Shown here piece after piece: positions 17,140 to 33,677 of a stretch of 35,374 bases of DNA (positions within the stretch are counted from its first letter, which is position 1; each line of letters starts with the position of its first letter). The notes below the pieces were generated by a model that was not told the origin of the DNA, made no database searches, and was given only the letters and a program-made list of their open reading frames with translations. Source of the stretch: Pseudolabrys sp. (lineage in GTDB: Bacteria; Pseudomonadota; Alphaproteobacteria; Rhizobiales; Xanthobacteraceae). A program made the translations under genes and the position numbers. The stretch is taken from the NCBI GenBank assembly GCA_029255525.1, contig JANLJK010000305.1:1-35374 (forward strand), given 5' to 3'.

Positions 17140-18081
17140 TTAGCGCTTGTCATCCTCCGGCCGCCAGCGGCGGTGCAGCCACAGCCACTGCTCGGGATGC
17201 TCGCGCACCCAGCCTTCGATCACGGTCATGATCTTCTGCATGGTCGCCGCGATGTCGACCTTGCCGTCGGCGTCGCGCACCGGCTTGATCTCGTCGGTCA
17301 ACTCGGCGCGGAAGCGGTTGCCGGGCAAGCGAACGATGCGGGTGCCGTGGATCGGGCAATCGAAGTGCTGCGCCAGCCGCGCGATCAGCGGATTGGCGCG
17401 CGTCTTGCGGCCGAAGAACGTCACCTCGACGCCGCGCATGTAATATTGATCGACCAGCATGCCGACATGGGCGCCGCGCTCCAGCGCCTGCGAGATCTTC
17501 ATCGGCGCGTCCAGGCTGGTCGAGATCAGTTCACCCATCGTGGCGGCGCGCGTCTCGGTGATCCAATCGTTCAGCTTTTTGATGTTCGGCCGCCGGTACA
17601 GGACCGCGCTGTCGAGCTTGTAGGTCGCCGCGCAGATCGCCGGCAGCTCCCAATTGGCGAGATGCGCGGCGAAGACCAAGGCTGGCTTGCCATCATTGAG
17701 CAAGGTGCGGAAGCGCTCGATGTCGGCGTCGTTGAGCTGGATCCGGCTATTCTTGTTGGGGTTTTCCGGGTCGAAATCCCACAGCCGGTCGAGATGGGCG
17801 AATTCCGCGCCCATGCGGCCGAGATTGTCCCACACGCCGGCGAGGATGGTCTCGATGTCGGCCGGCGACTTCTCAGGGAAAGCGGCGGTCAACTGCGCGC
17901 GGGCGATATTGTTTTCGCGCAACAGCGGTCCGATGGTGCGCATGAAGCGGCCGCCGGCGTTCGCCAGCGTATCGGGGGTAACGACCCGCAGCGCGCGCAA
18001 CAGGCCGATGGCGAGGGCGCCGACGATGGCGTCGCTGGCGCGCTTGGTGCCGCGGCGCAGCTTTCTTTTGAGCGTGCTCAT
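17140..18081 (-). CDS. lpxXL: Lipid A (lauroyl/VLCFA) acyltransferase, LpxL/LpxXL-like
   Basis: HtrB/LpxL family features (ALVFAAHLANWELP, GAHVGMLVDQYYMRGVEVTFFGRKTRANPLIARLAQHFDCPI, WLWLHRRWRP) and operon context. Confidence 0.85.
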   Translation of the reverse strand: MSTLKRKLRRGTKRASDAIVGALAIGLLRALRVVTPDTLANAGGRFMRTIGPLLRENNIARAQLTAAFPEKSPADIETILAGVWDNLGRMGAEFAHLDRLWDFDPENPNKNSRIQLNDADIERFRTLLNDGKPALVFAAHLANWELPAICAATYKLDSAVLYRRPNIKKLNDWITETRAATMGELISTSLDAPMKISQALERGAHVGMLVDQYYMRGVEVTFFGRKTRANPLIARLAQHFDCPIHGTRIVRLPGNRFRAELTDEIKPVRDADGKVDIAATMQKIMTVIEGWVREHPEQWLWLHRRWRPEDDKR

Positions 18082-18131
18082 GGTCGGCAATGGCCTGGGT
18101 CCCCGCTCGCGCGGGGACGAGTGGGGAGAGT

Positions 18132-19154
18132 TTAGAAGTTTACGATGACCTTGCCGAATACCTGCCGGCTTTCGATGCGCGCCAGGCCGCGCTCAAGCTC
18201 GGCGAGCGGCACTTCGGTGTCGATGATCGGGTCCATGCCGGCCGCCATCTTCGACAGGCTGTCGCGGATGTTGCGGATCTGGCAGCCGAACGAGCCGAAA
18301 ATTTTGTACTGCTGCTGGAACAGCTGCATCAGATTGATGGTCACGGTCGGGCCGGCGGTCGAGCCGCAGGTGACGAGACGTCCGCCGCGTTTGAGGACGA
18401 GCAGCGAACCGTTGAAGCCCTCGCCGCCGACATGCTCGAACACGACGTCGACGCCCTTCTTGGCGGTGAGCTTGCGCGTCACGCCTTCGAAGCGGTCCTT
18501 CTTGTAATTGATGACGTGATCGGCCCCTAACGCCTTGGCCTTCTCGGCCTTCTCGTCGTCGCCGACGGTGGTGATGACGGTGCAGCCGAGCGCCTTGGCC
18601 ATCTTGATGGCGACCGAGCCGATGCCCGATCCGCCGGCATGCACGAGCACGGTCTCGCCGGGCTTGAGCTTGGCATTGTCGAACAGCATGTGCTCGGTGG
18701 TGCCGAAGGCGATCGGCGCGCAGGCCGCGTCGCGCAGCGAGACATTATCCGGCACCGGCACGACCAGCCGCGCCGGCAGGTTCAACAGATCGCGGGCGAA
18801 GCCGTCGATATGAAAGCCCATGATGCCGGCGACGTTTTCGCACAGATTGTCGCGGCCCTCGCGGCAGGCGTCGCAATGCCCACAGGTCATGGCGCCGTAC
18901 ATCACGACCTTCTGGCCGGGCTTGAAGTTGGTTACGCCGGCGCCGAGCGCCGCGATCTCGCCGGAAGCTTCGGCGCCCACGACCAGCGGCATCTTGCGCT
19001 TGGCGAAAGCCATGCCGCGGAAGCCCCAGAGGTCGAGGTGGTTCAGCGCCACCGCCTTGATGCGGATCTGCACCTCGCCTTCGGCGGGGGCGGGCGGCTC
19101 GGGAAGTTCGACAAGCTCGAGCTTGCGGTCGGCGATGAGTTGCAGGGCGCGCAT
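18132..19154 (-). CDS. Zinc-type alcohol dehydrogenase/quinone oxidoreductase of the VLCFA cluster
   Basis: MDR family: GAEASGEIAALG, CGHCDACREGRDNLC Zn-binding Cys cluster, VHAGGSGIGSVAIKMAKALG Rossmann motif; position matches adh2XL. Confidence 0.88.
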   Translation of the reverse strand: MRALQLIADRKLELVELPEPPAPAEGEVQIRIKAVALNHLDLWGFRGMAFAKRKMPLVVGAEASGEIAALGAGVTNFKPGQKVVMYGAMTCGHCDACREGRDNLCENVAGIMGFHIDGFARDLLNLPARLVVPVPDNVSLRDAACAPIAFGTTEHMLFDNAKLKPGETVLVHAGGSGIGSVAIKMAKALGCTVITTVGDDEKAEKAKALGADHVINYKKDRFEGVTRKLTAKKGVDVVFEHVGGEGFNGSLLVLKRGGRLVTCGSTAGPTVTINLMQLFQQQYKIFGSFGCQIRNIRDSLSKMAAGMDPIIDTEVPLAELERGLARIESRQVFGKVIVNF

Positions 19155-19179: not shown

Positions 19180-20451
19180 TCAGGCCGGCTCGAGCCCCAT
19201 GACCAGCGAGACGTTCTGCCCGCCGAAGCCGAAGGAGTTCGAGATGGCGTGCTTGAGCTTGGCGTCGCGGGCCTTGTTCGGCACCACGTCGAGCGGGATG
19301 GCCGGATCGGGCGTGTCGTAATTGATGGTGGGTGGAATGCGCTGGTTCTGCAGCGTGAGGATCGAGAACACCGCCTCGACCGCGCCGGCCGCCGACAGAG
19401 TGTGGCCGATCATCGACTTGTTGGACGAGACCGGCAGGCTCTTGACGCGCTCGCCGAACACCGTCGAGCAGCCGAGATATTCCATCTTGTCGTTTTCCGG
19501 CGTCGAGGTGCCGTGCGCATTCACGTAGTCGATGTCGTCGGGCGTAAGGCCGGCGTCGTGGATCGCGCTGGCGATGCAGCCGATGATCGGCTTGCCGTCC
19601 GGGCTCGAGCGGGTGCGGTGGAAGGCATCGGTCATCTCGCCGCAGCCTTCGAGCACGCCGAGGATCGTGGCGCCGCGCGCTTTGGCGGAGTCATAGCTTT
19701 CCAGCACCAAGGCGCCAGCGCCTTCCGCCATCACGAAGCCGTCGCGGGTCTTGGAGAAGGGCCGCGCCGCCTTGGCGGGCTGATCGTTCTGGGTCGAAAG
19801 CGCCGACAGCAGCGAGAAGCGGATGACGGCTTCAGGGTTGATCGAGCCGTCGGTGCCGATGCACAAAGCCGCGTCGGTCTCGCCGCGGCGGATGGCTTCG
19901 ACGCCGAGCTGGATCGCGGTCGCGCCGGAGGCACAGGCGGTCGACAGCGAAATCGGCGTGCCGCGTGTGCCGAACTTCTCGGCCAGATGATCGGCAACCG
20001 AGCCGAACAGGAAGCGCTCGTGATAGGCGGGGAACTTGTCGCTCACCCGCAGCAGGTCGGCATAAGAGACCTTGTCATTGGCGCCGGCCACCGCGCTGAT
20101 CTCCAGCCGCTGCGGCCATTCCATTTCGATCGGCGGCACGGCGAGGAAGAGGGGCCCCGGGAATGCGCCGGGCGTGCCGACGCCGGACTGCCCGATCGCC
20201 TCTTCGGCGGCCAGGTTGGCGAAGCTTTCGGCAAGAGCGGCGGTGCAAGGCTGCGCCGTCAGATAATCGATGGTGCCGGCGATGCGGGTCTTCATGCCGT
20301 CGGTGGCAAAGCGGGTAATGGTGCGGATGCCGGATTCACCGGCGGTCAGCTTGGCCCAGTTGTCCGTCTTGCCGGCGCCGAGCGAGGTAACCACACCGAG
20401 GCCGGTCACCACCACGAGAGGTCGGCCCATCTTATCCTTGCCCGAAGCCAT
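19180..20451 (-). CDS. Beta-ketoacyl-ACP synthase (FabF-like) with intact Cys-His-His triad
   Basis: Active-site Cys in ISLSTACASGATAIQ; VNAHGTSTPENDKMEYLG and SNKSMIGHTLSAAGAVEA His motifs. Confidence 0.92.
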   Translation of the reverse strand: MASGKDKMGRPLVVVTGLGVVTSLGAGKTDNWAKLTAGESGIRTITRFATDGMKTRIAGTIDYLTAQPCTAALAESFANLAAEEAIGQSGVGTPGAFPGPLFLAVPPIEMEWPQRLEISAVAGANDKVSYADLLRVSDKFPAYHERFLFGSVADHLAEKFGTRGTPISLSTACASGATAIQLGVEAIRRGETDAALCIGTDGSINPEAVIRFSLLSALSTQNDQPAKAARPFSKTRDGFVMAEGAGALVLESYDSAKARGATILGVLEGCGEMTDAFHRTRSSPDGKPIIGCIASAIHDAGLTPDDIDYVNAHGTSTPENDKMEYLGCSTVFGERVKSLPVSSNKSMIGHTLSAAGAVEAVFSILTLQNQRIPPTINYDTPDPAIPLDVVPNKARDAKLKHAISNSFGFGGQNVSLVMGLEPA

Positions 20452-20462
20452 GTTCGCTCTCC

Positions 20463-21653
20463 TCAGCCGGCTCGTTCCACCAGCGCCAGGCCTTCGCCGC
20501 GCCAGTGGCCGACACCGGTCACCAGGACCTGATCGAGCGGCCCGTTCATCGGCTTCTCCAGCCCCGACGAGTCGCTGGGCGGAAACAGACTACCATGCGC
20601 CAGCGCCACCGTAGCGAGCGCGAGATTCATGGCGAATTGCGGCTCCAACCCATGTCCGAGATAGGAACCGGTGGCGCGGACGGCAAGGTCGCCGTGCTGC
20701 GCGAGAAACGCGCGTTCTTCGGTCGTGGCCGGCTGGGCGCCGGTCGCCCCCGAGAGCACCGCCGCGCCGCTCTTCACCTTGTCCTTGACCTTGTCCCACA
20801 GGCCGGCGAGCGAGGCGGTAACGGTACCCGGCGTCTTGCGGCTGGCGCGGTCGGAAACGACGGCGGTCAGGCGCGCCAGCGGCTTGGCGCCGCGCGCCTC
20901 GGCATGGTCGCGCGCTTCGATCACGAGGAAAGCGCCGAGCGAGCCGAGCGCAAAGCCGCCCACGCCCTCGCGCTGCCAGACCGGCGCGAGCTTGTCCTTC
21001 AGCGCCAGCTTGGCGAATTCGTAGAGCATCAGCAGGTCTTGGCGTTCGCCATTATGGGCGCCGCCGACGAGCGCGATGTCGCTCTGGCCGGCGACGATGC
21101 GCGAATGGGCGATGCGCACGGCGTCGACGCCGGCGGACTCTTCGCCCATGAAAGTTCGCGACGAGCCGGTCACGCCATGCACGATCGAGATATTGCCGGC
21201 GAGCAGATTGGAAAGCTGCGCCAGGAAGAGGGTGGGGCGCAGGTCGCTCATCAGCCTTTCGTTGAGGAAGGCCGGTGGATTGGCGGCGCCCGGTATGCCG
21301 GACAGGATCGTGGAGTCGACATTGAGATCGCGCTCGCCGCCGCCGGCGGCGACGATCATGTCCATGCGCGAGAGGACATCGCTATTGTCCTTCACGCCAG
21401 CGGAGTCGAGCGCGCAACCGGCCGCATAGGTGCCGATGCGCTGCCAGTTCTCCATCTGGCGCTGCTCTCTTTTCGAGATCTGGGTGTCGAAATTGATCGG
21501 CGCCAGCGGATGCACGACGAAGGGCGCGAAGGTCGTGGCATCGGCCGCAGGCTGCGCCAGCATGAGTTTCTGCCAGTGCGCATCCGGGCCTTCGCCCAGG
21601 CACGACACGATGCCGATACCGGTAATCCAGGCCTCACGTGCGCCCTCAGCCAT
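20463..21653 (-). CDS. Beta-ketoacyl-ACP synthase family protein lacking the usual active-site cysteine
   Basis: Thiolase-fold KS features (ITGIGIVSCLGEG, GGFALGSLGAFLVIEARDHAEARG, RATGSYLGHGLEPQFAMNLALA), but the TACA region reads HGVTGSSRTFMGEESAGVDA. ATG at 21653. Confidence 0.83.
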   Translation of the reverse strand: MAEGAREAWITGIGIVSCLGEGPDAHWQKLMLAQPAADATTFAPFVVHPLAPINFDTQISKREQRQMENWQRIGTYAAGCALDSAGVKDNSDVLSRMDMIVAAGGGERDLNVDSTILSGIPGAANPPAFLNERLMSDLRPTLFLAQLSNLLAGNISIVHGVTGSSRTFMGEESAGVDAVRIAHSRIVAGQSDIALVGGAHNGERQDLLMLYEFAKLALKDKLAPVWQREGVGGFALGSLGAFLVIEARDHAEARGAKPLARLTAVVSDRASRKTPGTVTASLAGLWDKVKDKVKSGAAVLSGATGAQPATTEERAFLAQHGDLAVRATGSYLGHGLEPQFAMNLALATVALAHGSLFPPSDSSGLEKPMNGPLDQVLVTGVGHWRGEGLALVERAG

Positions 21654-22119
21654 GGGCCGGGACCTCACTCGGGAAACCAATACGGTCGGCTTGGGCGCGC
21701 ATCTGTTGGCTCATTTCTTCGTTCGGGAAGGGCATCACGCGCAGTGTGAGCACCGCGTCGCAGATTGGTTTGCCCTTGGTCGAGATACTGGCCTTCGTAA
21801 CGGCGTAGCCAGAGCCCTCATGCAACAGCGTCGCGGTGACGGCGAGCACCATGCCGGGCGTCACGAAGGTGCGGAACTTGGCGTCCTTGACCGCGGCCAG
21901 GAACGGCATGCGCTCAAAACGGTTGGCGGCGACCACCAGCCAGCCGGACGTCTGCGCCATGGTTTCGACGAGCAACACGCCCGGCATCAGCGGATAACCG
22001 GGGAAGTGGCCTTCGAAGATCGTGCTTGTCGTGGGAACCGTGGCCTCGGTGCTGATCGTCCGATCGTCGAGACGAAGCTCGACGATCCGGTCGATCAGCT
22101 GAAAATACTCGAGACGCAT
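21646..22119 (-). CDS. FabZ-like 3-hydroxyacyl-ACP dehydratase of the VLCFA cluster
   Basis: Hotdog motif FEGHFPGYPLMPGVLLVETMAQTSGWLV. True start MRLEYFQLIDRI at 22119, not the longer ORF start. C-terminus overlaps the next CDS start. Confidence 0.9.
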   Translation of the reverse strand: MRLEYFQLIDRIVELRLDDRTISTEATVPTTSTIFEGHFPGYPLMPGVLLVETMAQTSGWLVVAANRFERMPFLAAVKDAKFRTFVTPGMVLAVTATLLHEGSGYAVTKASISTKGKPICDAVLTLRVMPFPNEEMSQQMRAQADRIGFPSEVPAHG

Positions 22120-22130
22120 GAGACCGACTT

Positions 22131-22412
22131 TTACGCCCCTTTGGCAGCGACGAGTTCGTCGATGCGGGCGCTCAGGTTCTTGAGGACGAAATACTGGTCG
22201 GTTGTGGCCTTGCCGTCGTTGACTTCCTGGGTCCACTGCTCGAGCGGCAGCTTGATGCCGAAGGCCTTGTCGATCGCGAAGGCGATATCGAGGAAATCCA
22301 GGCTGTCGATGCCCAGATCGTTGATGGCGTGGCTCTCGGGCGTGATGGAGTCGCGCGGAATATCGCAGGTCTCGGCGATAATATTGGCGATCGTTTCGAA
22401 CGTCGAGGACAT
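22131..22412 (-). CDS. acpXL: Acyl carrier protein AcpXL
   Basis: [29 protein letters not shown] phosphopantetheine site; 93 aa; heads the VLCFA operon. Confidence 0.92.
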
Positions 22413-23461: not shown

Positions 23462-23540
23462 CGCTGCCTGAACCGTTTCCCTTCATTCTTGGCAAGCCGC
23501 GGCGTACCCGCGCGCCTTGCCTGTCAGGAGCCAAGACGAC

Positions 23541-24038
23541 ATGACACGCACTGCTTTCCTTCTCGCCGCCGCGCTGGCCGCTTTTGCTGCCACGCCTGCT
23601 TCCGCTGACGACGTTACCATCGGCACGCTCAAGATTACCGCGCCTTGGGCGCGGGCCACGCCGAAGGGCGCTGGCGTCGGCGGCGGCTATTTCAAGATCA
23701 CCAACACCGGCACCGCGCCCGATCGTCTCGTCAGCGGTGTCTCGGAGGTGTCCCAGCGCTTCGAAATCCATGAGATGAGCGTCGTGGACGGCATCATGAA
23801 GATGCGCGAAATGCCCAAGGGCATCGAGATCAAGCCGGGCGAGACCATCGAGTTCAAGCCCGGTGGATATCATGTGATGTTCATGGGCTTGAACAAGCAG
23901 CTCATGCAAGGCGGCACCGTCAAGGCGACGCTGCAATTCGAGAAGGCCGGCAAAGTCGATGTCGATTTCAAGATCGAAGGTATCGGCGCGCAGACCGGCG
24001 GCGGTCATGACATGGGTGGCATGAAGCACGGCCATTAA
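23541..24038 (+). CDS. Periplasmic copper chaperone PCuAC
   Basis: Signal peptide; ITAPWARATPKGAGVGGGYFKITNTG, FEIHEMSVVDGIMKMREM, GGYHVMFMGL metal-binding motifs; Met/His-rich tail. Confidence 0.92.
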   Translation: MTRTAFLLAAALAAFAATPASADDVTIGTLKITAPWARATPKGAGVGGGYFKITNTGTAPDRLVSGVSEVSQRFEIHEMSVVDGIMKMREMPKGIEIKPGETIEFKPGGYHVMFMGLNKQLMQGGTVKATLQFEKAGKVDVDFKIEGIGAQTGGGHDMGGMKHGH

Positions 24039-24167: not shown

Positions 24168-25490
24168 CTACCAGCCGATCGCCTTCGGCAGCCAGGTCGC
24201 AAGACCGGGGAAGGCGAACACCAACACCAGCGCCAGGACCTGCATCCCCACGAACGGCACAATGCCGCGATAGATGTCGCCGGTGGTGACCTCCGGCGGC
24301 GCGACGCCGCGCAGGAAGAACAAGGCCCAGCCGAACGGCGGCGTGAGGAACGAGGTCTGCAGGTTCACGCAGATCAACGTCGCCAGCCATACCATGTCGA
24401 CATTCGCGGCGGTGAACACCGGCAGGAACAGCGGTACAGCGATGTAGGAGATCTCGATCCACTCGATGAAGAAGCCGAGGATGAAGATGATGAACATCAG
24501 GAACCAGATGTCCGCATTGATGCCGCCCGGCAGGTACGCGAAGAGGTCGTGCACGATCTTCTCGCCCTGAAGGCCTCGGAAGGCCAACGCGAAAATCTGC
24601 GCGCACATCAGGATGAACATCATCATCGCGGTCGTCTTGACGGTCGCCTGACAGGTCTCTCGCAGCACGCGCCATGACAGCCGGCCGGTGACCGCCGCGA
24701 TCAGGATCGAGCCGAGGGCGCCCATGGAGGCGGCTTCCGAGGGTGCGGCGATGCCGGCGATGATCGATCCCAAAACCGCGGCGACGAGCCCGACGGGTGG
24801 CGCCACCACCTTGAAAATCTTGGTCGCAAGCTGGCCGCCGGAAAGGAGCGCGCGTTCCTCGGCCGGAATGGCCGGCACTTCCTTCGGGCGTACGATGCCG
24901 AGGACGAGGATGTAGACGCAGTAGATGCCGGCCAGCATCAGGCCGGGGATCATCGCGGCCGCGAACAATGTGCCGACGGATTCGTTCAGGATATCCGCCA
25001 GCAAAATGAGGATCAGGCTTGGCGGGATGATCTGGCCGAGCGTACCGGAAGCGCAGATGACGCCGCAGGCGAGGCCCTTATTGTAGCCACGCCGCAGCAT
25101 GCCGGGCAGCGTCAGCAGGCCGAGTGTCACGACCGTGGCGCCGACGATGCCGGTGGTCGCGCCCATCAGCACGCCGACCAGCACGATGCCGATGCCGAGT
25201 CCGCCGCGCAGCGAACCGGCCAGATGTCCGATTACATCCATCAGGTCCTCGGCGAGCTTGGATCTCTCCAGCATCATGCCCATGAAGACGAAGAGGGGGA
25301 TGGCGAGCAGCGTCGAGTTCGTCACCACGCCGAACAGGCGGTGAGGCAACAGGTTGAACAAAGTCATCCCGAAGCCGAGATAGCCGAACACGAAGCCCGA
25401 CACCGCAAGGGTCATGGCGACGGGAATGCCGGCCATGAGCAGGACGAAAAACGACGCCAGCATCAGGACGGCGTAGTATTCGAGTGGCAT
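24168..25490 (-). CDS. dctM: TRAP transporter large permease (DctM family)
   Basis: 440 aa polytopic; VLMGATTGIVGATVVTLGLLTLPGMLRRGYNKGLACGVICASGTLGQIIPPSLILILLADI. Confidence 0.93.
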   Translation of the reverse strand: MPLEYYAVLMLASFFVLLMAGIPVAMTLAVSGFVFGYLGFGMTLFNLLPHRLFGVVTNSTLLAIPLFVFMGMMLERSKLAEDLMDVIGHLAGSLRGGLGIGIVLVGVLMGATTGIVGATVVTLGLLTLPGMLRRGYNKGLACGVICASGTLGQIIPPSLILILLADILNESVGTLFAAAMIPGLMLAGIYCVYILVLGIVRPKEVPAIPAEERALLSGGQLATKIFKVVAPPVGLVAAVLGSIIAGIAAPSEAASMGALGSILIAAVTGRLSWRVLRETCQATVKTTAMMMFILMCAQIFALAFRGLQGEKIVHDLFAYLPGGINADIWFLMFIIFILGFFIEWIEISYIAVPLFLPVFTAANVDMVWLATLICVNLQTSFLTPPFGWALFFLRGVAPPEVTTGDIYRGIVPFVGMQVLALVLVFAFPGLATWLPKAIGW

Positions 25491-25990
25491 CAGGCTCTCC
25501 GGTAGGCGAGGGTGCTTTTGATCGCTTCCGAGAGCGACTGGAGGAAATACAGAGCGAAGCCGAGAGGGATCAGGCCTTTGACGATGTAGCGGTGATCGAT
25601 GCCGCCGGGATTGGCCGTGCCCTCATTGATGCTCCACGACTGGTAGACGTAAGGGATGCACAGCTTGATCACGAGCGCGCACAGCAGCATGCCGAGGATC
25701 GCCGTGATGATGTCGACCAGGTGTTTGTTCTTCTCGCTGAAGTATTGGAACAGGACGTCGACGCGGACGTGCTCTCCGTGCAGCAGCGCGTAGCACATGC
25801 CGAACACGCAGATCGGCACCATGATGTGCCACTCGAATTCCTGCATCCAGATCGAGCCGATCGAGAAGCCGTAACGTAAGAGCACGTTCGTGCCCATCAC
25901 GAGCGCGAGGCCGAGCGCCAGCCATGCCGTCGCGCGGCCGACGAGATCGACGAAAGTGTCGATCGCGCCGGCCAGCCGTTCTGCCGTCAT
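25490..25990 (-). CDS. dctQ: TRAP transporter small permease (DctQ family)
   Basis: Four-TM small protein between DctM and DctP; ATGA overlaps on both sides. Start MTAERL at 25990. Confidence 0.88.
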   Translation of the reverse strand: MTAERLAGAIDTFVDLVGRATAWLALGLALVMGTNVLLRYGFSIGSIWMQEFEWHIMVPICVFGMCYALLHGEHVRVDVLFQYFSEKNKHLVDIITAILGMLLCALVIKLCIPYVYQSWSINEGTANPGGIDHRYIVKGLIPLGFALYFLQSLSEAIKSTLAYRRA

Positions 25991-27078
25991 CAGGTCGCCT
26001 TGCGGATCTTGGTGTGGTAGACCGTCTCGCTCTTGTCGGCCCATTCGTCGTACTTGGCTTTATAGGCGAAGTAGGAATCATTCACCTTCTTGGTCACCGG
26101 GTCTTTCGCCACGGCTTCCGCCAGTATCTTCGTGGTGGCAGCGCGCAGCGCCTTCACCACGTCATCCGGCAGCGGTTGTGCGATCACGCCTTGGTTCTTG
26201 ACCAAGTCTTCGTAAGCCTCGGCGTTGTTCTTCTGGCACCACGCTTCGCTGATGACGTTGCAGGCCGCGCAGGCGTTTTCGACGATGGCTTTGAGATCGG
26301 GCGGCAGGCTTTCCCACTTCGCCTTGTTGATGGTCAGCTCGCTGGTGGTGGCCATCTCGTGCCAGCCGGTCGTGTAGTAGTACTTGGCGACCTTGTGTAG
26401 CCCGAGCTGACGGTCGAGATAGGGGCCGACGAATTCGGCCGCGTCGATGACGCCACGCTCGAGGTTAGGGAAAATTTCGCCCGGTGCAATGAGACGCGAG
26501 TCGACACCGAGCTCCTTGTAGACGCGGCCCGCAAGACCGGGGATGCGCATCTTGACGCCCTTGAGGTCATCGACCGTCTTGATCTCCTTGCGGAACCAGC
26601 CGGTCATCTGCACGCCGGTATTGCCGCAGGCGAAGGGCACGAGATTGAAACGATCGTAGACCTCGCGCCACAGCTCACGCCCGCCGCCGTCGTAGTACCA
26701 GCCGTTGAAGCCCTGGAAGTTGAGACCGAAGGGGACGGCCGTGAAATACTGCGCCGCGAAGCTCTTGCCGGTCCAGAAATAGGAATTGGCGTAGTTCATC
26801 TCGACGGTGCCGGACGATACCGCATCGAAACCTTCCGCCGCGGGGATCAGCTCGCCGGCACCGTAGAACTGGATCTTCAACCGGCCGCCCGACATCTCCT
26901 CGATGCGCTTGCAGAGATCTTTGGCGCTGCCTGGGCCGGTTGAATAGAACGCGGCGTTCGGGCCATAGAAGCTGGTCATCTTCCAGTTGAAGGTGGTTTG
27001 CGCCTTGGCAACCGCCGGTGCGGCGATCGTGCCGGCAGTGCCCATCAGGGCATACTTGGTGAAATCGCGACGTCGCAT
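25990..27078 (-). CDS. dctP: TRAP transporter solute-binding protein (DctP family, twin-Arg-like signal)
   Basis: MRRRDFTKYALMGTAGTIAAPAVAKA leader; GRLKIQFYGAGELIPAAEGFDAVSSGTVEM; VKMRIPGLAGRVYKELG. Start at 27078. Confidence 0.92.
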   Translation of the reverse strand: MRRRDFTKYALMGTAGTIAAPAVAKAQTTFNWKMTSFYGPNAAFYSTGPGSAKDLCKRIEEMSGGRLKIQFYGAGELIPAAEGFDAVSSGTVEMNYANSYFWTGKSFAAQYFTAVPFGLNFQGFNGWYYDGGGRELWREVYDRFNLVPFACGNTGVQMTGWFRKEIKTVDDLKGVKMRIPGLAGRVYKELGVDSRLIAPGEIFPNLERGVIDAAEFVGPYLDRQLGLHKVAKYYYTTGWHEMATTSELTINKAKWESLPPDLKAIVENACAACNVISEAWCQKNNAEAYEDLVKNQGVIAQPLPDDVVKALRAATTKILAEAVAKDPVTKKVNDSYFAYKAKYDEWADKSETVYHTKIRKAT

Positions 27079-27336
27079 GACTAACCCCCGCTCTCGTGCA
27101 ATGCGCAGCGAATATGCGCGGCTCTGCATGAGCAAGCGACGTGCCATTTCCGGACTGAATGTGTGATTTCAGCGGTTTGTATCGCGCCCGTATGGGGCGG
27201 ATGACATGCTGCCTAATTGCGCGGCGTGACGCGTATGGACATGGGCAACTAGGCGGCAGGTGTTGCGCCAGTGGTTGCTAAAGCGACCATATCGCTGCGC
27301 GTTAAGGGGTCGATTGTTCAGAATGTTAAAAGGAGC

Positions 27337-30041: not shown

Positions 30042-32654
30042 CTATTTGAATTTCGGTAGTGCCTGTTTGATCCGGCCGATCTCGGCCCATGGATCCTTCT
30101 TCAGTCGCGCCAGGCGCTGGCCGATGTTCTTCACCGTGTACTGGTTGGCGCTTTTGAGCGATCCCAGTTCCGACCAATCGATCGGCGCCGCCACCGGTGC
30201 GCCCGGCCGGGCGCGCGTGGAGGAGGGCGCGACCGCGGTCGCCTCGCGCGAGTTGCGCAGATAGTCGATGAAGATGCGTCCGGCGCGTTTGGCCTTGGTG
30301 GCGGTGGCGACGTATTTGTCCGGGGCATCCGCTTCCATCGCGGCGGCGACCACGCGGGTGAATTCCTTGGCCTCTTCCCAGGGCGTCGGCTTGATCGGAA
30401 GCACGACATGCAAGCCCTTGCCGCCGGACGTCTTCAGGAAGGTTTTGAGCTTGATGCCGGCGAGCCGTTCACGCACATCGCGTGCCGCCGCTACCACATC
30501 TTTCCAGTCCGTGTTTGGGCCCGGATCGAGATCGAACACCAGCCGGTCGGCGTCCTCACGATCATCAATGGTGGTGCCGCGCGTGTGGATTTCCAGGACG
30601 CCGCCTTGCACCAGCGAGATCAGCCCATCGAGATCGTCGAGAGAGATGATCTTGTCGCCTTTCTCCGGCACCAAGTGCAGATGTTCGGTGGAGATGCCGG
30701 CGGTGGCGTGCTTCTGGAAAAAGCATTGCCCCGTGGCACCGTCGGGGCAGCGCACCAAGGAAATCGGCCGGCCGACAAGATGCGGTGCCATCCATTTCCA
30801 GACGCTGGCGTAATAGTCGGCGAGATCGCGTTTGGTGATGCCGGCATCATCCCAATAGACCCGGTCGGGATGGGTCAGTTTGACATGGCCCACCATGTCG
30901 TCGTTTTTCCTTGCCGCCCGGACGGGCGCACTATGTTTGACGGCCGATGCCGCGCGGGCCGCGACGACGTTTTTCCTCTCCCGCACGACCTCGGTCGCCT
31001 TCTTGTCTTCACGTAGGCCCTGAAACGAGGCCTGGCGCACGCGCTCGCCATGCGTCCAGCCATGGAAGTCGACCTCGGCGACAATCTTGGGGCTGACCCA
31101 GACAGGCTTGCGGACGCCGCGTTCTTCGGCAGGGACGGTGTCGAACGGCGATGTCTTTGTCGCTGTGGGCTTGAGCTTGCGATAGAGATCGTGCGCGACC
31201 TGATGCGAGAAGCCGGTGCCGGTGCGCCCGGCATAGCGAAGTGTGCCCATGTCGTAGAAGCCAAGCACCAGCGCGCCGATGGAGTGGGCGTTGGCCGTTG
31301 ACGGGACGAAACCGGCAACGACGAATTCCTGCCGATCCGAGCACTTGGTCTTGACCCAATCGTCTCCGCGGCCGGAGTGATAGCCGGCCTTGGCCTGTTT
31401 CGAAATGATGCCTTCGAGGCCCATCTTGCAGGCGTGTTTGAGCAGCACCGGGCCGCGCTCGTCGATCGACTCGCTCATGCGGAGGGCGCTTCGTTCCGGC
31501 GCGCGGGCCAGGAGCTTGGCCAGGGCCGCCTTGCGCGTGGTTAGCGGCAGTGGCCGCAGGTCCGTGCCGTCCAGATGCATGAGGTCAAAGGCATAGAACG
31601 CCATGCGCTTGCCGTCGCCCTGCTTGAGCGCCTGTTGCAGCAACGAGAAGCTCGATATGCCGTCGTCACCTTCCACGACGACTTCGCCATCGATCAGTGC
31701 GGTCTTGGCCGGCAGCTTGGCGACAGCTTCTGCCACCGCAGGAAATTTCTTGGTCCAGTCCAGGCCGCGCCGGGTCAGCAGCTTCACCTTGCCGCGGTCG
31801 AGCCTTGCTTGCAGGCGGTAGCCGTCGAACTTGATCTCATGCACCCAGTTGTCGCCATCCGGCGCCTTGTCAGTGAGTGTCGCGAGACAGGGTGCGACGA
31901 AGGCGGGCAGGGCGCCAATCGGCGCTTCGTTGGTGTCGGGGTCGTTGTCGTCAACCTTTACGCTTCTGCGCAGCGGCTTGATCGCGGCGGTGCGTGTCTT
32001 GGGTCTCTTCTTGGTCGTCTTTTTCTTGGCGGCTGTTTTCCTTGTCTTTTTCTTCGCCGTCGCTCTGGTTTTCTTTTTGCTCGGCGTGCCTTCGGCAATC
32101 TCATCGAGTGAGCGGCCGGTGGTGATCGACAAAGGTGCTTCGTCGAGAATGTCCTTGTCGCGTGCCGAACGCTCGGCCGCGTCGTGCTGTTTGATCAGCA
32201 GCCAGTTGTCGCGCTTTTCGCCCGGCCGCCGGTGCATGCGCACCAGATGCCAGCCGCCGTGCAGCTTCTCGCCGTCGAGCGTGAAGGCGAGATGGCCTTT
32301 CTTGAGGCCCTTGTGCGGATCGGCTTCGGGCGTCCAGGTGCCGCGGTCCCAGATCATGACCGTGCCGCCACCATACTCGCCCTCGGGGATGGTCCCCTCG
32401 AACGTATTGTACTCGATTGGGTGATCCTCGACTTGGACAGCGAGGCGCTTTTCATCTGGCACTAAGCTTGGGCCGCGCGTCACCGCCCAGCTCTTCATGA
32501 CGCCGTCGAGTTCGAGGCGTAGGTCGTAATGCAGGCGCGTCGCGTCGTGCTTCTGGATGACGAAGGCGTGGCCGGCTTTGCGAGCGACTTTGCCTTTCGG
32601 CTCTGGTGTTACGCCGAAGCGGCGTTTGGCGTTGTAGGTCTTGAGTTCGACCAT
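30042..32654 (-). CDS. ligD: Multifunctional DNA ligase D (phosphoesterase-ligase-polymerase)
   Basis: PE domain (HDATRLHYDLRLELDG), ligase KxDG (EIKFDGYR), polymerase (LVFDLDPGPNTDW); complete 870 aa. Confidence 0.96.
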   Translation of the reverse strand: MVELKTYNAKRRFGVTPEPKGKVARKAGHAFVIQKHDATRLHYDLRLELDGVMKSWAVTRGPSLVPDEKRLAVQVEDHPIEYNTFEGTIPEGEYGGGTVMIWDRGTWTPEADPHKGLKKGHLAFTLDGEKLHGGWHLVRMHRRPGEKRDNWLLIKQHDAAERSARDKDILDEAPLSITTGRSLDEIAEGTPSKKKTRATAKKKTRKTAAKKKTTKKRPKTRTAAIKPLRRSVKVDDNDPDTNEAPIGALPAFVAPCLATLTDKAPDGDNWVHEIKFDGYRLQARLDRGKVKLLTRRGLDWTKKFPAVAEAVAKLPAKTALIDGEVVVEGDDGISSFSLLQQALKQGDGKRMAFYAFDLMHLDGTDLRPLPLTTRKAALAKLLARAPERSALRMSESIDERGPVLLKHACKMGLEGIISKQAKAGYHSGRGDDWVKTKCSDRQEFVVAGFVPSTANAHSIGALVLGFYDMGTLRYAGRTGTGFSHQVAHDLYRKLKPTATKTSPFDTVPAEERGVRKPVWVSPKIVAEVDFHGWTHGERVRQASFQGLREDKKATEVVRERKNVVAARAASAVKHSAPVRAARKNDDMVGHVKLTHPDRVYWDDAGITKRDLADYYASVWKWMAPHLVGRPISLVRCPDGATGQCFFQKHATAGISTEHLHLVPEKGDKIISLDDLDGLISLVQGGVLEIHTRGTTIDDREDADRLVFDLDPGPNTDWKDVVAAARDVRERLAGIKLKTFLKTSGGKGLHVVLPIKPTPWEEAKEFTRVVAAAMEADAPDKYVATATKAKRAGRIFIDYLRNSREATAVAPSSTRARPGAPVAAPIDWSELGSLKSANQYTVKNIGQRLARLKKDPWAEIGRIKQALPKFK

Positions 32655-32657
32655 GCG

Positions 32658-33521
32658 TCAGCCAGTCCTTCGGACTTTCTTGCGGGAAGCCGCGCGTTTC
32701 GGCTTGGCGCGCTTGCGGGCCGCCGGCTTTACGGCCTTGTTGCTCCTGTCGCCTTTGGCGCTCCGGCGCAGAGCGTCCATCAGGTTGATGACGTTGCTCG
32801 GCGTCGGCTCGGACACGATCGGCGGTTTCTTGCCGGCGCGTTTGGCGTCGATCAACTTGTTGAGCGCGATCTCGTAGCGATCCTCGAACTTGTCCGGATC
32901 GAAATGCCCCTGCTTGCTCTCCAGGATATGAGTGGCAAGCTTGAGCATGTCGGCTGGCACTTTGGCGTTCGGGATGTCGTCGAAATAGTCCTTCTCGTTG
33001 CGGACCTCGGTGTTGTAGCGCAGCGCGGTCGCGAGCAATCCCTTGCCGCGCGGCTGCAGCAGCAACAGGCGTTCGCGCCGGTAGATCACGAGCTTGGCCA
33101 GCGCCGCCAACTTCTCCTTGCACATGGCCTCGCGGATCACGGCGAAGGCTTCCTGCGCCGTCTCGTCCTGCGGCACGATGTAGAATGACTCATCGAGATA
33201 GATGCGGTCGATCTCGTCGATCGGCACGAATTCCGTGATGTCGATGGCGTGGGTACTGTCGAGGGCGACATTGTCGAGTTCTTCATCCTCCAGGAGCAGG
33301 TATTCGCCCTTGGCGAATTCGAAGCCTTTCACGCGATCGTCCGGCTCGACCGCGTCACCGGTTTCCGCATCCACGATCTCGTTACGGATGCGGTTGCCAG
33401 TCTTGCGGTTGATGATGTGGAAGCGGACACGTTCCGTGGTCGATGTCGCGGGAAATAGCTCCACCGCGCAGGATACCAGCGACAGCTTCAACAAGCCTTT
33501 CCAGGTCGGCCGCGGCGCCAT
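32658..33521 (-). CDS. ku: Non-homologous end-joining protein Ku
   Basis: WKGLLKLSLVSCAVELFPAT, VDAETGDAVEPDDRVKGFEFAKGEY, ALRYNTEVR; Lys/Arg-rich C-terminal tail; adjacent to ligD. ATG at 33521. Confidence 0.95.
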   Translation of the reverse strand: MAPRPTWKGLLKLSLVSCAVELFPATSTTERVRFHIINRKTGNRIRNEIVDAETGDAVEPDDRVKGFEFAKGEYLLLEDEELDNVALDSTHAIDITEFVPIDEIDRIYLDESFYIVPQDETAQEAFAVIREAMCKEKLAALAKLVIYRRERLLLLQPRGKGLLATALRYNTEVRNEKDYFDDIPNAKVPADMLKLATHILESKQGHFDPDKFEDRYEIALNKLIDAKRAGKKPPIVSEPTPSNVINLMDALRRSAKGDRSNKAVKPAARKRAKPKRAASRKKVRRTG

Positions 33522-33553
33522 TGAGCAACTCCGTCGTGAGTATCCCAACCGGG

Positions 33554-33579
33554 AAACTCTAGGCCAGGGAACGGGTTCC
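33554..33579 (-). promoter_or_regulatory. EcfG/RpoE2-like promoter upstream of ku: GGAAC-N16-AGTT
   Basis: Minus strand GGAAC (33579-33575), 16-nt spacer, AGTTT (33558-33554), about 33 nt upstream of the Ku ATG. Confidence 0.5.
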
Positions 33580-33677
33580 CGTCCCCCACGACTTTCGGCC
33601 GCTTCCAAGCGACTGAATTGGTGAGGCTTTCGTCGCTCCTCTTCCTCATTTAGGCGATCTTCGGCATCGTGTGCTGT

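Follow-up and report, generated by a model that had tools for sequence, protein, structure and literature searches.

Organization of the locus

The window analysed here is a stretch of 35,374 nucleotides that makes up one whole contig of a Pseudolabrys sp. assembly (4.2 Mb in 456 contigs, 85% complete), and a VLCFA locus lies on its minus strand. Read along that strand, the locus begins with acpXL (22131–22412), which encodes a dedicated acyl carrier protein (NF005079/PRK06508, 176 bits against a cut-off of 83), followed by fabZXL (21646–22119, with the start placed at MRLEYFQ), which encodes a 3-hydroxyacyl-ACP dehydratase with FabA-like/FabZ matches. The 3′ end of fabZXL overlaps by 8 nt the start of fabF2XL (20463–21653), the gene for a 396-residue ketosynthase-fold subunit that lacks the nucleophile Cys and that we propose to be a partner resembling a chain length factor (CLF); it matches the NCBIfam equivalog NF005084/PRK06519 (586 bits, cut-off 320) and Pfam ketoacyl-synt. 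The 423-residue, catalytically complete ketosynthase (KS) partner is encoded by fabF1XL (19180–20451; NF005076/PRK06501, 745.6 bits, cut-off 629). An adh2XL-like gene for a zinc-binding dehydrogenase (18132–19154; Pfam ADH_N and ADH_zinc_N) and lpxXL, encoding the lipid A VLCFA acyltransferase (17140–18090; NF005120/PRK06553, 429 bits, cut-off 273), complete the series.

The order acpXL–fabZXL–fabF2XL–fabF1XL–(adh)–lpxXL recurs identically in 70 loci with the dehydrogenase gene and in 49 without it. Among the named relatives in our scan, the nearest are MAGs of Pseudolabrys and other Hyphomicrobiales, with FabF2XL proteins about 80% identical to that of the window. The dehydrogenase gene is absent between fabF1XL and lpxXL in 49 of 161 annotated sequences, as in reports on Bradyrhizobium; in A. 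fabrum the dehydrogenase of the VLCFA locus is needed for VLCFA (PMC11901934).

Elsewhere in the window, a PCu(A)C copper chaperone is encoded at 23517–24038 on the plus strand, and TRAP transporter genes occupy 24168–27147 on the minus strand, with DctQ and DctP recognized by Pfam and the DctM-like large subunit assigned from position only. LigD, with ligase, phosphoesterase and polymerase domains (30042–32654, minus strand), lies beside Ku (32658–33608, minus strand); the two are a bacterial non-homologous end-joining pair.

Catalytic residues of FabF2XL and FabF1XL

In a profile alignment built with 18 relatives, the FabF2XL segment ssrtfmGEEaaG lies without gaps over SISIATACTSG of Escherichia coli FabF, and the nucleophile Cys163 corresponds to Glu172. 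The surrounding segment, HGVTGSSRTFMGEESAGVDA (residues 159–178), is encoded at about 21179–21120, some ten bases from the interval of about 21130–21190 given in the preliminary description; the Glu171–Glu172 pair spans 21138–21143 on the minus strand, with the Glu172 codon at 21140–21138. No alternative Cys was found in the nucleophile-motif region of this alignment, and the earlier claim that the ORF at 20463–21653 is a ketosynthase without its Cys thus holds.

Public genomes yielded 157 pairs in which FabF2XL and FabF1XL are adjacent and complete. Position 172 of FabF2XL is Glu in all 157 and position 171 in 156, and the MGEE motif is identical in Sinorhizobium meliloti FabF2XL. Pairwise identity among these sequences has a median of 56% and a minimum of 37%, and invariance of Glu172 over such divergence excludes both sequencing error and chance. 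In FabF2XL the equivalent of His303 is a residue other than His in 157/157, and the Lys found at position 335 of FabF has been replaced too. Of the Cys-His-His-Lys active site of KAS II/FabF, the equivalent of His340 alone remains (His334, 20652–20654, minus strand; His in 142 of 157). Judged by these residues, FabF2XL is dead for condensation. At the loop that holds the gatekeeper Ile108 in FabF, FabF2XL has the motif GGERD (residues 105–109, 21327–21341, minus strand), invariant in the 18-sequence alignment. In one sequence (L134, 5857–7187, plus strand) FabF2XL is split over two overlapping frames by a frameshift or sequencing error, and the downstream FabF1XL is intact.

A KS domain whose Cys is replaced by Gln becomes a decarboxylase, and Glu resembles Gln; FabF2XL might by this analogy be a KSQ-like malonyl-ACP decarboxylase that makes the primer. 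Decarboxylation by KSQ domains uses the two His residues, however, and the His303 equivalent is missing from every FabF2XL sequence and Lys335 is lost as well, while the pathway is primed by long acyl chains rather than by acetate. With Glu in place of Gln at the Cys position and the second His missing, we rejected this role as highly improbable.

The neighbouring gene had been described as a canonical KS, and the larger sample bears this out. FabF1XL contains ISLSTACASG with Cys173 (19933–19935), the active-site nucleophile of the pair, His313 (19513–19515) as the His303 equivalent, and Lys345 and His350 (within 19402–19419) as the equivalents of Lys335 and His340, all on the minus strand and each conserved in 157/157. 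The gate Phe is present in 156 of the 157, the last sequence being gapped there. Where FabF has its gatekeeper loop, FabF1XL has PPxExEW, in which P107 and W112 are near-invariant.

Pairing, distribution and mutant phenotypes

Among 162 strong copies, fabF2XL lies directly upstream of fabF1XL on the same strand in 160, the two genes being separated by a median of 27 nt. The two exceptions are a copy at a contig edge (L041) and a lone extra copy (L182, 5992–7284, minus strand), which has KGEEMAG and no adjoining FabF1XL; a complete pair lies on another contig of that genome. We surveyed 386 alphaproteobacterial genomes and found strong matches to FabF2XL in 20; 19 of these also have FabF1XL, and in the twentieth the FabF2XL gene runs into a contig edge. 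FabF2XL is present in 60 of 61 sampled genomes of the window's own family. Outside the window's order the locus is patchy: the class-wide sample contains 17 strong cases, spread over several further alphaproteobacterial families. This suggests that bacteria beyond Hyphomicrobiales make lipid A with VLCFA or put the pair to some other use.

Three sequences from one family (L174, 13445–14296; L175, 2635–3810; L177, 4087–5073) have a second FabF2XL/FabF1XL pair beside acpXL–fabZXL, about 6–8 kb from a full-length pair. The second-pair FabF2XL retains Glu-Glu and has a shortened or degenerate C-terminal half; a frameshift in L174 is possible.

Published mutants bear on the function of the pair. 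In A. fabrum, an insertion in fabF2XL leaves lipid A without any VLCFA, and supplying just fabF2XL on a plasmid rescues VLCFA partially (PMC11901934); the insertion may be polar on fabF1XL. In Bradyrhizobium ORS278, mutants in acpXL, fabZXL, fabF1XL and fabF2XL were unobtainable (PMC5613085), and transposon mutants of the cluster in S. meliloti, including fabF1XL and fabF2XL, grow poorly in low salt (PMC5539429). These mutants establish a requirement for FabF2XL in making VLCFA, which is not evidence that it measures chain length.

The C-terminal half of FabF2XL is variable, and the extra copies in L174 and L177 have lost much of it, as one might expect of a duplicate decaying without function. 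Against such decay, MGEE, GGERD and the LRPT motif described below are invariant and FabF2XL is kept wherever FabF1XL occurs. The absence of VLCFA from the A. fabrum mutant and its partial rescue by fabF2XL alone already contradict decay, unless the phenotype is purely polar, and we consider this explanation the least credible of those discussed here.

Predicted structure of the pair

The model of FabF2XL alone (pLDDT 89.7, pTM 0.90) has a KS fold with both halves modelled. A Foldseek search with this model placed FabF at the top (TM about 0.78) and a ketosynthase chain of a KS/CLF pair (6kxd_A) at rank 44, and did not separate CLF from FabF. Both genes lie in a single frame in 31 rows of our data, and one such relative (L048) served for an AlphaFold model of the pair, in which FabF2XL and FabF1XL were fused in frame with the stop read as Gly (877 residues). 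Despite a disordered linker of about 56 residues, the fused model has a pTM of 0.90. In comparison with the PDB, its alignment with the KS-CLF didomain of PfaC (6riw) spans 1001 columns at a TM of 0.68, whereas single ketosynthase chains match one half of it, at a TM of at most 0.43 of the query. The fused model is of L048 rather than of the window pair and AlphaFold is prone to dock any two KS folds; the prediction supports the standard KS/CLF arrangement, and homodimers are compatible with it when it is taken alone.

Conservation of the ACP-docking patch and of the active site differs between the two proteins

In FabF crystal complexes, the ACP serving one active site is contacted mostly by the other monomer, through Lys65, Arg68, Lys69 and residues 127–132 and 205–206 (PMC7138838). 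Given such docking in trans, a heterodimer with its sole active site in FabF1XL should conserve the docking patch on FabF2XL and let it vary on FabF1XL, with active-site positions showing the reverse. We defined the patch as FabF positions 62–71, 125–138 and 205–206 and compared mean weighted entropies, using 410 circular shifts as the null. In FabF2XL the patch averages 0.59 bit, against 2.41 in FabF1XL, a difference that 0 of 410 shifts reach, and the active-site core averages 1.35 in FabF2XL and 0.14 in FabF1XL, with 11 of 410 shifts as low. In 30 canonical homodimeric FabFs from the same order, patch and active site are both conserved (0.44 and 0.12). Lys and Arg in the docking helix number 0.2 per sequence in FabF1XL compared with about 3.2 in canonical FabF. 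The FabF1XL alignment is uncertain around FabF positions 60–70 and 104–118, and entropy values shift with the alignment; an earlier alignment gave an asymmetry of the same sign and smaller size, reached by 1.5% of shifts for the patch and 2.7% for the active site. The direction of the asymmetry is robust and its size is alignment-dependent.

The near-invariant segment of FabF2XL is LRPTLFLAQLSNLLAGN (residues 138–154, 21192–21242, minus strand), equivalent to FabF 129–145, which combines the hydrophobic part of the ACP-docking patch with a pocket and interface helix. Its entropy percentile is 6% in FabF2XL and 95% in FabF1XL, and L138, R139, P140, T141 and L144 are each found in 157/157. FabF2XL reads LRPT where FabF has ISPF, and of the classical basic docking residues R68 is kept and 127, 128 and 206 are lost. 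A patch that is conserved yet differs in part from that of FabF is as we would expect for a dedicated carrier protein.

These patterns bear on whether the two proteins could instead form separate homodimers, with FabF1XL condensing and FabF2XL serving as a pseudo-enzyme or regulator. FabF-type enzymes are normally homodimeric, and the model of FabF2XL by itself is a confident KS fold (pLDDT 89.7). A FabF1XL homodimer, however, would need the patch for its own ACP, and there it has lost both conservation and positive charge; the obligate pairing of the genes, in order and in occurrence, also speaks against separate assemblies, which we regard as improbable.

A model for a probable FabF1XL/FabF2XL heterodimer

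That FabF1XL and FabF2XL form a heterodimer is, in our judgement, very likely. A KS/CLF-type heterodimer had been raised as a possibility in the preliminary description, and it is now well supported by the loss of Cys, His and Lys, the obligate pairing, the asymmetry of ACP docking in trans with its homodimer control, the match of the fused model to PfaC KS-CLF and the published finding that a fabF2XL mutant lacks VLCFA. Which catalytic residues are lost or kept, how the genes pair and how the conserved surfaces are divided can be read from the sequences, and the geometry of the heterodimer is predicted from the model. We also think it likely that the pair is an obligate KS/CLF-type heterodimer that carries out repeated condensations on AcpXL on the way to the lipid A VLCFA.

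In the model, the heterodimer would extend a C16–C18 chain to the C26–C30 VLCFA of lipid A. FabF1XL would supply the only active site, Cys-His-His-Lys with its Phe gate, and would condense malonyl-AcpXL onto the growing chain. While serving FabF1XL, AcpXL would sit mainly on FabF2XL, which would provide the docking surface in trans and, where the two subunits meet, would also line the acyl pocket from the partner side. The acyl chain would reach this interface, where GGERD of FabF2XL and PPxExEW of FabF1XL would replace the FabF gatekeeper loop, and we infer that contact with FabF2XL there both accommodates the very long chain and restricts how far it grows. The Glu171–Glu172 pair may close or shape the vacant FabF2XL site.

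The preliminary description had also suggested that the Cys-less partner could set the C26–C28 acyl length. How much of the length control lies in FabF2XL is a separate question, and we put the chance that it is the main determinant at about even. The heterodimer could instead use FabF2XL for AcpXL docking and stability only, with length set by the FabF1XL pocket, by LpxXL or by other steps. The strongest constraint measured in FabF2XL falls on the ACP-docking and interface segment, FabF1XL carries its own remodelled and conserved PPxExEW segment, and the mutants lose VLCFA without making shorter ones, all of which would fit a docking role. The conserved FabF2XL segment should, however, also face the acyl pocket of the partner, and CLF pocket residues change product length in known KS-CLF pairs (PMC12664062). 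We regard docking without length control as a plausible arrangement, if one that we do not favor. Tentatively, and with confidence short of even, we suggest the more specific possibility that FabF2XL is a dead ketosynthase capped by Glu-Glu, of a lineage apart from the polyketide CLFs, that both docks AcpXL and limits the acyl tunnel.

The heterodimer would answer why the VLCFA locus always contains two ‘fabF’ genes. The NCBIfam families NF005084 and NF005076 are both named ‘beta-ketoacyl-ACP synthase’, and FabF2XL, the NF005084 member, is without the residues for that activity. VLCFA contributes to a strong outer membrane, to symbiosis and, in certain species, to viability, and the proposed arrangement yields single-residue predictions for the making of C26–C30 chains. 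If the model is correct, the logic of KS/CLF pairs would extend outside secondary metabolism. If FabF2XL is in addition a Glu-Glu-capped subunit of separate lineage that limits the acyl tunnel, length control by a dead ketosynthase partner would have arisen in the essential primary metabolism of a large bacterial group, possibly independently of antibiotic synthesis in origin.

Comparison with known KS/CLF systems

In the open-access literature we found no description of FabF2XL as lacking the Cys, as CLF-like or as a heterodimer subunit. Like CLFs, FabF2XL lacks the nucleophile Cys and is paired with an active KS, which it adjoins in 160 of 162 copies; its loss of catalytic His is partial. 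In the tree, FabF2XL forms its own clade (100/100) on a long branch, on the CLF side with 96/77, a placement that is not secure, and a grouping with FabF1XL is not rejected (p-AU 0.136). ‘CLF-like’ serves as a working analogy, and FabF2XL may or may not descend from the CLF clade.

The fold and the best sequence match of FabF2XL are those of KAS II (FabF), but KAS II is a homodimer with Cys, His303 and Lys335, and FabF2XL has none of the three. The KS-alpha/CLF pairs of three Streptomyces sequences (L228, L230 and L231) resemble the VLCFA pair in having adjacent genes and a CLF without the nucleophile Cys and His303, and the CLF motif S-[ED]-Q-A-G-G-[LV]-D recalls G-E-E-[SA]-A-G-V-D of FabF2XL. 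The nucleophile position is Gln in these CLFs and Glu in FabF2XL, however, and Streptomyces CLFs keep Lys335 and have Arg for His340, the reverse of FabF2XL. Type II polyketide operons place KS-alpha first, whereas fabF2XL comes first in the VLCFA locus, and FabF2XL lies about 2 substitutions per site from the type II polyketide KS-alpha/CLF in the tree.

Two smaller systems offer further parallels. Aryl-polyene ApeO-ApeC, from a FAS-like pathway of Gram-negative bacteria, likewise couples a KS to a dead partner, and conserved Arg residues of ApeC are thought to contact ACP (PMC8358021). ApeC is half-size, with one thiolase domain (about 210–240 residues), whereas the window FabF2XL has 396 residues and both halves; the shortened second-pair FabF2XL of L174, L175 and L177 recalls this half-size CLF. 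In cispentacin synthesis, AmcF-AmcG pairs a KS with a partner lacking the motif, the cyclization factor; the heterodimer is confirmed, and AmcG needs AmcF to be soluble (PMC10698177). This pair differs in performing a single C2 extension with cyclization, and AmcG lacks some CLF secondary structure elements.

The KS-CLF didomain of PfaC in bacterial PUFA synthases (6riw) also consists of a KS and a dead partner of the KS fold, and the fused FabF2XL-FabF1XL model superposes on both of its domains. PfaC KS-CLF is reported to act on long reduced acyl chains, performing their final elongation steps (PMC12895367). It is one polypeptide with the KS first, within a type I synthase, whereas the VLCFA pair is encoded by two genes with the CLF-like subunit first, in a type II system with a lipid A product. 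That FabF2XL/FabF1XL works like KS/CLF pairs, and above all like PfaC KS-CLF, is well supported.
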